DNA of 64,000 nt from Mediterranea sp. (in: CFB group bacteria) (lineage in GTDB: Bacteria > Bacteroidota > Bacteroidia > Bacteroidales > Bacteroidaceae). The number at the start of each line of letters is the position of its first letter. Positions within the stretch are counted from its first letter, which is position 1. Position numbers and translations under genes: made by a program. The notes beneath the pieces are model-generated. The model searched no databases and was not told the DNA's origin. It worked only from the letters and a program-made list of their open reading frames with translations. This document shows, one piece after another, positions 27,713 to 63,810 of the stretch. Where the stretch lies: the NCBI GenBank assembly GCA_031287715.1, contig JAITSN010000045.1:33908-97907 (forward strand), read 5' to 3'.

Positions 27713-28869
27713 TGGACAAAATAAAGAACCCTTATACGGATCTGCCCGTTACGGTACGGCGTGTTTTATGCTCAGTCGTATCTGCTACAGCATATCTGTT
27801 GGAAGTTCTTTCCGCCATCCTGTTAGGAGGAGTCTTGTTCGGCATGGGGAAGAAGACCGACAAAAAAAGATCTTTCTATCATCGCTACATCCATATCATC
27901 TACCGCTTCAATACAAGATTCATGCCCGGTGTGAAATACCATATCGAAAACAAATCCAACGAAACATTCCGCAAAGGGGCCATCATGATATGCAACCACC
28001 AATCTTTCCTGGATTCGGTATGCCTGCTCATCCTTAGCCCCAAGATCCTTATCGTTACCGGCGACAAAGTATGGCAAAACAGAATTATCCATAAGATACT
28101 CAGCTTTGCCGATTTCTATCCCATCTCAAGAGGGATCGAAAACAGCATTCCCGTCTTTGAAGAATATATCGGCAAAGGATACTCCATTGCGATATTCCCC
28201 GAAGGCGAACAATCCCAAACCTGTTCCATTTTGCGGTTTCACCGGGGCGCATTTTACCTGGCGGAACAATTAAAAAGCGACATCCTGCCCGTTTTTATCC
28301 ACGGCGTCGGCCATGTCCTGCCCAAAGGATGCCATTGGATAAACAACGGAGCGATCTTCATCGAGATCGGCCAACGCATCACCCCGGAAGACACGCAGTA
28401 CGGAGAAAATTACCCGGCGCGCACAAAAAATATCCGCCACTACTACCGCTCACATTACAAAACACTTTGCCACCGGATAGAAACCGCCCATTATTTTAAT
28501 AACTGCATCGTAAGCCTGTATGGCCATTTGGGCCTGTCCGTACAAAGAAAGGTCAGCCGGTTGTTCAACCGCCACGCCGGCTTTTCCAAATGGGTCGACA
28601 TATCTTATGATGAAGAAACCCTCATCATTCTGAATGACGAATATGGCGCCATCGGTTTACTCTTCGCCTTAGTCCATCCGGACAAACAAATCATCACAAC
28701 AGACAACCACCGCCGTCTCCGCGCTTTAATGCACCGCTGCAAGAGCTTACCCAAAAACATCGAACCGCTCGGAGAGACCATCACCGACTTTTCTTTGTTG
28801 AAAAGCGCTAAGATCTTCGTCTTCAAGCCAACCCTCGAAAACGCTTTGCAATTAACAATGAACAATTGA
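27712..28869 (+). CDS. PlsC-like acyltransferase, standalone paralogue of the C-terminal third of the 15447-19013 fusion
   Basis: MICNHQSFLDSVCLLILSPKILIVTGDKVW, FPEGEQSQTCSILRFHRGAFYL, DILPVFIHGVGHVLPK; C-terminal LIILNDEYGAIGLLFALVHPDKQ. Confidence 0.88.
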   Translation: MDKIKNPYTDLPVTVRRVLCSVVSATAYLLEVLSAILLGGVLFGMGKKTDKKRSFYHRYIHIIYRFNTRFMPGVKYHIENKSNETFRKGAIMICNHQSFLDSVCLLILSPKILIVTGDKVWQNRIIHKILSFADFYPISRGIENSIPVFEEYIGKGYSIAIFPEGEQSQTCSILRFHRGAFYLAEQLKSDILPVFIHGVGHVLPKGCHWINNGAIFIEIGQRITPEDTQYGENYPARTKNIRHYYRSHYKTLCHRIETAHYFNNCIVSLYGHLGLSVQRKVSRLFNRHAGFSKWVDISYDEETLIILNDEYGAIGLLFALVHPDKQIITTDNHRRLRALMHRCKSLPKNIEPLGETITDFSLLKSAKIFVFKPTLENALQLTMNN

Positions 28870-28915
28870 CAATAAACAATTGACAGTTGGCAATGAACAA
28901 CTGACAATTAGCTAA
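28855..28915. repeat. CAATTGACAAT-type short intergenic repeats
   Basis: aacaatgaacaattgacaataaacaattgacagttggcaatgaacaactgacaatt; similar words at ~36041 and ~48878-48932. Confidence 0.6.
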
Positions 28916-29067
28916 TCCGCAGGCAAATGGTAAATCGTAAATGATAAATGGTAAATGTTTGGGCGTTGCCTGCGGCCCGAGCCATCCGCTGCAAGTCCTC
29001 GCTTCGCTTCGCTCGTTCCGGGCTTTCCGCTGCTGTCTCTAACGCGGCTGCGCGTCTTTGTGAAACC

Positions 29068-29670
29068 AAAAAACGGCATTATCTTTTAAAAAAAGCGCTT
29101 CGACGCCGTCTAAGCGCCGTTACCTTTTGGGGAAAGCGCTTCGACGCCGTCGAAATGCCGTTACCTTTTGGGGAAAACGCTTCGACGCCGTCGAAATGCC
29201 GTTACCTTTTGGGGAAAACGCTTCGACGCCGTCGAAAAGCCGTTACCTTTTGGGGAAATCATTTCGACGCCGTCTAAGCGCCGTCACCTTTTGGGGAAAT
29301 CATTTCGACGCCGTCTAAGCGCCGTTACCTTTTGGGGAAATCATTTCGACGCCGTCGAAATGCCGTTACCTTTTGGGGAAAACGCTTCGACGCCGTCGAA
29401 ATGCCGTTACCTTTTGGGGAAATCATTTCGACGCCGTCTAAGCGCCATTACATGTTTGAAAAAGCATTTTCGACGTCAACAAAACGTCATTACATGTTTG
29501 AAAAAGCATTTTCGACGTCAACAAAGCGTCATTACATGTTTGAAAAAGCATTTTTGACGTCAACAAAGCGTCATTACATGTTTGAAAAAGCATTTTCGAC
29601 GTCAACAAAACGTCATTACATGTTTGAAAAAGCATTTTCGACGTCAACAAAGCGTCATTACATTTTTGGG
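29068..29670. repeat. Tandem repeat array: 9 units of 41 bp (CGACGCCGTC core) followed by 5 units of 42 bp (CGACGTCAAC core)
   Basis: CGACGCCGTC at 29101, 29142, 29183, 29224, 29265, 29306, 29347, 29388, 29429 (exact 41 spacing); (C/T)GACGTCAAC at 29471, 29513, 29555, 29597, 29639 (exact 42 spacing). Confidence 0.95.
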
Positions 29671-29724
29671 AATGGCGAAACGGTAAATTTCAAGTATCTT
29701 TGTTTTCTATAATTTCTTTTTGTT

Positions 29725-36153: not shown

Positions 36154-36164
36154 GCACCGTAAAC

Positions 36165-36220
36165 GAAACGTGGAGAGATTTGAGTAGCTTGCAACCACAG
36201 AAAAAAATGCTAAAACACAT
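36165..36220 (+). ncRNA. SAM-II-like (SAM_alpha) riboswitch aptamer upstream of metK
   Basis: CGTGGAGAGATTTGAGTAGCTTGCAACCACAGAAAAAAATGCTAAAACAC: P1 GTGG/CCAC, conserved GATTTGA, GCTTGCAACCAC and GCTAAA segments as in SAM-II. Confidence 0.8.
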
Positions 36221-36291
36221 TCCTTCCTGTGTTGTCTGCGCTTTCCTGCTCATCCCTGTTTCATAAGTATAAACGATTAATTATCGAATTT

Positions 36292-48944: not shown

Positions 48945-49009
48945 CTTCATAAAGCAGAGCAGGGAGGGGAAACTATCCCCTCCCTGCTCTGCTTTATGAA
49001 GATTTTTTT
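48945..49009 (+). terminator. Perfect 26-bp hairpin plus T-tract after carB
   Basis: CTTCATAAAGCAGAGCAGGGAGGGGA-AACTA-TCCCCTCCCTGCTCTGCTTTATGAAG then ATTTTTTT. Confidence 0.85.
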
Positions 49010-49248: not shown

Positions 49249-49773
49249 TTATCGTACTGCTACGACGGCTTCAGAAAAAAGTTTTGGACTCATCGTACTG
49301 CTACGACGACTTCAGAAAAAAGTTTTGGACTCATCGTACTGCTACGACGACTTCAGAAAAAAGTTTTGGACTCATCGTACTGCTACGACGGCTTCAGAAA
49401 AAAGTTTTGGACTCGTCGTATTGCTACGACGGCTTCAGAAAAAAGTTTTGGACTCGTCGTACTGCTACGACGGCTTCAAAAAAAAGTTTTGGACTCGTCG
49501 TACTGCTACGACAGCTTCAAAAAAAAGTTTTGGACTCGTCGTACTACTACGACGGCTTCAGAAAAAAGTTTTGGACTCGTCGTACTGCTACGACGACTTC
49601 AGAAAAAAGTTTTTGACTCATCGTACTGCTACGACGGCTTCAGAAAAAAGTTTTGGACTCGTCGTACTGCTACGACGGCTTCAGAAAAAAGTTTTGGACT
49701 CGTCGTACTGCTACGACGACTTTAGAAAAAAGTTTTGGACTCGTCGTACTGCTACGACGCTATCAGAAAAAGT
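49249..49773. repeat. Tandem array of 41-bp units with CGTCGTACTGCTACGACG hairpin core
   Basis: GGACT(C)-type unit starts at 49286, 49327, 49368, 49409, 49450, 49491, 49532, 49573, 49614, 49655, 49696, 49737, all exactly 41 bp apart. Confidence 0.95.
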
Positions 49774-63723: not shown

Positions 63724-63810
63724 CTTAAGGGGGGGGGTTAAGGGGTGCTGAAGGGGGGGTTAAGCATGCCTTAAGGGGGGGGTTAAGCACCCCTTAATCC
63801 CCCCTTAAGG
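63724..63810. repeat. G-tract/CTTAAG low-complexity imperfect repeat
   Basis: CTTAA(G)9TTAAGGGG, GAA(G)7TTAAG, CTTAA(G)8TTAAG, CCCCTTAATCCCCCCTTAAG. Confidence 0.8.

Follow-up and report, generated by a model that had tools for sequence, protein, structure and literature searches.

The closest published precedents for the repeats described here are two families of P. gingivalis, BrickBuilt and MITE464/PgRS. BrickBuilt is a MITE-borne minisatellite in which 23-nt units stand with a leader and a separate tail at 19 loci, with one consensus across these loci and IS5-like terminal inverted repeats of 12 nt of the GAGACCTTTGCA type (PMC4596501). MITE464/PgRS is MITE-like as well and consists of 41-nt tandem direct repeats of one unit family, with repetitive flanks and IS5-like terminal inverted repeats (GAGACTGTTGCA / TGCAACGGTCTC); no matches to it were reported outside P. 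gingivalis, and repeats of 41, 23 and 22 nt are recorded in P. gingivalis W83 (PMC4596501). A search of the literature for tandem repeats between Bacteroides genes yielded nothing earlier beyond P. gingivalis, and that the repeat lengths seen in the present genome recur in that species, where they were reported without sequence matches elsewhere, is notable.

The locus that we compare with these systems lies in a window of 64,000 nucleotides (the whole stretch of DNA that was analysed) from a draft genome, called G000 below. Like BrickBuilt, the arrays of this genome are a Bacteroidales feature, lie between genes at many loci, run head to tail without spacers, have long stem-loops, vary in copy number (by strain in BrickBuilt) and possess a conserved one-sided leader, here at about one quarter of the arrays; they differ from it in a unit length of 40-42 bp, in unit sequences that form about 16 groups and in a Flavo-1-like leader, where BrickBuilt has 23-nt units and one consensus. 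Compared by description, MITE464/PgRS has tandem direct repeats of 41 nt as well, and its IS5-like terminal repeats, repetitive flanks and single unit family set it apart. The terminal-repeat sequence GAGACYNTTGCA was not found in the window with up to one mismatch, and since both families are marked by such IS5-like ends, we do not file the array as a member of either.

Two more distant comparisons are instructive. REPs have a conserved consensus and are associated with a RAYT transposase; the arrays resemble REP/BIME elements as short intergenic dyads dispersed over the genome but have no single consensus, and mobilisation by a RAYT was rejected because no Y1_Tnp (PF01797) match, the mobilising enzyme sought, was found in the 84% complete genome, with PF01797 matches being present in two relatives, G061 and G049. 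The periods, which form a series from monomer through dimer to higher multiples (about 21, 41, 82 and 123-126 bp), and the greater similarity of units within than between loci recall the higher-order satellites of eukaryotes, although here the arrays are bacterial, short (about 2-15 units) and scattered between genes. The FopS/RbpB sRNA family of Bacteroides was also considered and proved unrelated, a text search having found no tandem repeats in it.

The array upstream of hemW

The preliminary description had reported an exactly periodic array at 29068-29670 in which nine 41-bp units pass into five diverged 42-bp units, and both the boundaries and the unit count were upheld: anchoring on TTCGACG/TTTGACG yields 14 units (nine of 41 bp and five of 42 bp) whose starts are spaced 41 bp eight times and then 42 bp five times, and the left edge falls at about 29067 by way of a degenerate unit. 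TRF reports period 41 at 29092-29451 (score 524) and period 42 at 29426-29668 (score 423), and self-identity reaches 0.92 at lag 41 and 0.97 at lag 42 versus 0.23-0.25 at other lags, values that place the array far beyond chance. On the forward strand, the sequence begins with the degenerate first unit at the junction of leader and array (29067-29097), which is common to the paralogous array G000:C32:28042-28402 and to C92; TRF, anchoring and lag identity together define the nine 41-bp units that follow at 29098-29467 (core TTCGACGCCGTCGAA / ...CGTCTAA) and the five 42-bp units at 29468-29670 (core GACGTCAACAAAACGTC), a diverged form of the 41-bp unit. The palindromic CGACG core described earlier is present in most 41-bp units as the dyad TTCGACG-C-CGTCGAA, but four of the nine carry the mismatch CGTCTAA and the dyad of the 42-bp units is weaker (GACGT...ACGTC).

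As first described, hemW (radical SAM, HemN_C) lies downstream, its promoter region (29671-29724, +) directly after the array holding an TATCTTTG box that we take, from general knowledge of the consensus, to be of the Bacteroides -7-like type. The upstream neighbour, read earlier as a PKS cluster, is an acyltransferase gene (PF01553) preceded by genes for an AMP-binding enzyme and another acyltransferase. A coding role for the array was discarded, as 41 is not divisible by 3 and the ORFs that run through such arrays are mechanical.

The window contains two further arrays, both on the forward strand. At 49252-49771, TRF and anchoring give 12.7 units of 41 bp (TCGTACTGCTACGACGGCTTCAGAAAAAAGTTTTGGACTCG) with no leader within 300 bp; ahead of it, 48945-49007 is occupied by a perfect inverted repeat of great length with a T run behind it. 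Paralogues of this second array at C4 and C50 have the hairpin loop inverted (GCAG for CTGC) and the remainder of the unit co-oriented, which we infer to be what template switching within an inverted repeat would produce. At 63724-63797, TRF finds a short 22-23-bp array (TTAAGGGGGGGGTTAAGCATGC) that possibly belongs to the genus-wide 21-23-bp class introduced below; it contains TTAAGCATGC dyads and stretches of seven to nine consecutive G residues. A SAM-II riboswitch at 36164-36223 (+) was also recorded, with 61.4 bits, above its gathering score.

Arrays and leaders across the genome

The genome is a 2.5-Mb draft of 121 contigs (84% complete). TRF was run on 717 kb of sampled contigs, with non-ORF DNA defined by simple ORF calls, not by annotated genes. 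In this sample, 39 arrays have a period of 40-42 and seven more a multiple of it (81-85 and 126), other long periods being rare; 41 of these 46 arrays are located in non-ORF DNA, and the arrays occupy 11.3 of its 72 kb (about 16%), a density that is possibly overestimated because the contigs were partly picked for matching the array. A DNA search of the whole draft found an inverted copy, 90% identical and 35 kb away, together with many weaker matches, so the expectation that further genomic copies exist is borne out by this copy and by dozens of arrays. Seven contig ends fall within arrays, which means both that the arrays break assembly and that array copy numbers in this draft are lower limits.

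What is kept among these arrays is the length of the unit: the period stays at about 41 bp while unit sequence differs widely from one array to the next. Consensus units, compared in every rotation and on either strand with dinucleotide shuffles as the reference, sorted into about 16 sequence groups, and 11.7% of pairs reached at least 55% identity versus 1.0% in shuffles, an excess of cross-similarity over chance from which it follows that part of the unit set has common ancestry. Self-complementarity is the other common property, as a bias shared by the arrays on average: the dyad excess over shuffles sums to a Stouffer z of 6.1 for the 16 group representatives, and the mean RNA folding z is -2.0 on one strand and -1.5 on the other, where random windows give -0.1, in agreement with the preliminary description of inverted repeats and a run of hairpins. 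The purine/pyrimidine spectrum peaks at 20.5 bp, exactly half a unit (z 10), as would be expected if each unit were made of two dyad bricks, each with a pyrimidine arm and then a purine arm.

The array at 29068-29670 is preceded by a leader, a GC-rich interspersed element of about 96 bp (28957-29055, +) that was delimited by flank comparison and turns its 3' end toward the array. The element is sharply bounded (about 96-107 bp, TTTGGGCGTTGCC...TAACGCGGCTGCGCC), is matched at least 41 times across the genome and adjoins arrays of different unit sequence. In the 717-kb sample, an array lies within 130 bp of the 3' end of 13 of 19 copies and of the 5' end of none, whereas random placement in non-ORF DNA gave a mean of 1.3 per side and a maximum of 6 in 2000 trials. 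About a quarter of the arrays have a leader, at one end and in constant orientation, and 34 of the 46 arrays have none within 300 bp. Inward-facing pairs occur at C32:27905-28504, C92:28726-29027 and C108:1723-2317, with an array between the facing leaders at C32:28042 and C108; the array at 29068-29670 has no such pair. AT-rich short tandem repeats of 7 bp (14/21 bp; CAATTGA..., AAATGGT...) were located by TRF outside the leader at 28849-28957, and an AAATGGT run stands ahead of many leader copies in this genome. These CAATTGA/AAATGGT repeats often border the Flavo-1-like copies, with opposite orientation on the two sides. Several contigs begin or end at a Flavo-1-like copy (G000:C101:8, C1:8, C70:14, C44:14, C64 end and C105 end), so this repeat breaks assembly too.

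The likeness to Flavo-1 stems from the Rfam model RF01705, all of which (positions 1-76 of 76) is covered by an end-to-end alignment of the leader on the minus strand at 28971-29053. The scores, 23.1 bits in the window and 28-36 bits in homologues in other Bacteroidota, all lie below the gathering cut-off of 42 bits, at which Rfam returned nothing for array or leader; matches of miRNA type from an e-value search were dismissed as chance hairpin matches well below their cut-offs. Unlike Flavo-1 as catalogued, the element here is multicopy, interspersed and tied to arrays. Similar elements are found in other Bacteroidota, and weaker relatives on conjugative plasmids of Bacteroides and Phocaeicola, but the genomic loci examined outside G000 that carry leader-like elements had no such arrays, and the sister genomes with arrays gave no leader match. 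In the F. psychrophilum transcriptome, Flavo-1 hits have either orientation relative to transcripts, and many fall outside any transcript (PMC9723704), an arrangement more easily reconciled with a DNA element than with an RNA gene.

Relatives and turnover

The genus is represented by 160 genomes, its named members being Bacteroides, and the comparison drew on a single genome per species. In 345 kb searched of the sister genome G136 (HemW 81% identical), there were sixteen arrays of 21-23 bp and three of 44-46 bp, the latter being dimers, and none of 40-42 bp; G061 (HemW 78% identical) has both the 21-23 and the 40-42 class, and the noncoding repeats of G049, G003, G017 and named Bacteroides are mostly of 21-23 bp. 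The units of the relatives' 21-23-bp arrays also exceed shuffles in dyads (summed z 5.5, 22 non-redundant units), and the analogue of the half-period signal, a purine peak at their own period, was not significant in them. Within each species, units of its own tend to recur at several loci, such as CATGCGCATG in G136, TTGTACA-AAGAATGAATTCTT in G003 and the CTGACACCCGGGTGTCAG dyad in B. sp. GM023. Upstream of hemW, the dyads or short arrays that several named Bacteroides carry immediately ahead of the promoter differ greatly in sequence, and between matching flanks at this site B. congonensis carries one CTGACACCCGGGTGTCAG dyad and B. sp. GM023 four.

Explanations for the arrays and their implications

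Our preferred explanation, at a probability of roughly 0.6, takes the array as a single copy of an intergenic interspersed repeat, satellite-like and partly composite, that turns over through hairpins. Its basic brick would be a partly self-complementary, hairpin-forming sequence of about 20-23 bp that makes up intergenic arrays in most of the sampled Bacteroides, and in this lineage the brick would have been paired into a higher-order unit of about 41 bp and strongly amplified. Units would be gained and lost by replication slippage or unequal exchange aided by the hairpins, template switching may additionally flip hairpin cores, and arrays may be copied to new loci, at times together with the leader; they would be tolerated because of their location between genes, and any effect on a neighbouring gene would presumably act through structure (a DNA or RNA hairpin, or a cruciform) and not through a specific binding sequence. 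The observations from which this explanation is drawn are the dozens of arrays, the locked period, the divergent sequence, the dyads, the 21-23-bp arrays of relatives, the copy-number difference at an orthologous site and the polarity of the leader. A fixed period with such divergent sequences exceeds what neutral slippage strictly needs, so a constraint that measures length is possible. The negative search for a mobilising enzyme and the lack of a nearby leader at most arrays also count against this explanation.

If hairpins were selected and sequence were not, the arrays could also be read as terminators or insulators that separate neighbouring genes in either direction, and the retention of self-complementarity as sequence changes, the almost exclusively intergenic location and the presence of arrays or dyads directly upstream of the hemW promoter in several Bacteroides species would all suit such a role. 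We nevertheless hold it to be unlikely, since the arrays show no bias toward gene ends: 20 lie in co-directional, 11 in divergent and 3 in convergent gaps versus 76/30/19 for gaps above 150 bp, which is the background context, and the absence of orientation bias leads us to reject a role in termination only. The two strands also fold about equally, and a strong terminator of the usual type, a hairpin ending in a T run (48945-49007), already stands between the gene and the second array. Binding of protein, for nucleoid organization, segregation or boundary formation, is a still less probable role, in which a dimer would sit on each dyad. That the 41-42-bp spacing would keep all cores on one face of the DNA had been proposed in the preliminary description, and the dyad cores, the strict spacing and its closeness to four helical turns speak for this role. 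Support for it is weak or absent: the units share no common binding sequence and are too divergent for one sequence-specific protein, a 41-bp unit drifts by 34 degrees per copy at 10.5 bp per turn and the relatives' 22-23-bp arrays by 34-69 degrees, and AA/TT is strongest at 6.8 bp, with no dominant peak at 10.25 bp. A segregation or boundary site is further contradicted by the scatter of arrays over dozens of loci instead of a single one or a handful.

Least probable of all, and in our judgement very much so, is growth directed by the leader, whereby the Flavo-1-like element would act as the leader of a CRISPR does and new units would be inserted beside it. The strict polarity from leader to array and the constant unit length invite this comparison, but leader-proximal and distal units show no consistent difference in uniformity (5 versus 4 arrays), so that no sign of growth driven by the leader is visible, and there are arrays without leaders here and arrays in sister genomes without a leader match. 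CRISPR itself is excluded by structure, the units running head to tail without spacers as was recognized from the start, and no match to the Cas1 family (PF01867) was obtained in the 84% complete genome. Turnover of a satellite-like repeat through hairpins is the explanation that we retain. A more far-reaching reading, which we hold to be improbable, is that in Bacteroidales the period of intergenic hairpin arrays (21-23 or 40-42 bp) would be fixed as if by a ruler, with the sequence left free, and that Flavo-1, now catalogued as an RNA, would be a mobile element at the DNA level, placed with fixed polarity at one end of such arrays.

What is new here is that the arrays occur on a genome-wide scale, that so many different unit sequences hold to a single period, that sister genomes differ in period and that a Flavo-1-like element is associated with the arrays in a polar manner. 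The orphan Flavo-1 "RNA" is suggested to merit re-examination as an interspersed DNA element, and the arrays account in part for the fragmentation of such draft genomes. In the sampled part of this genome, about one sixth of non-ORF DNA consists of satellite-like arrays that hold to one repeat length and leave the sequence free, and with relatives that use a smaller brick, and one that has both forms, the growth and function of a bacterial satellite can be compared among close relatives.
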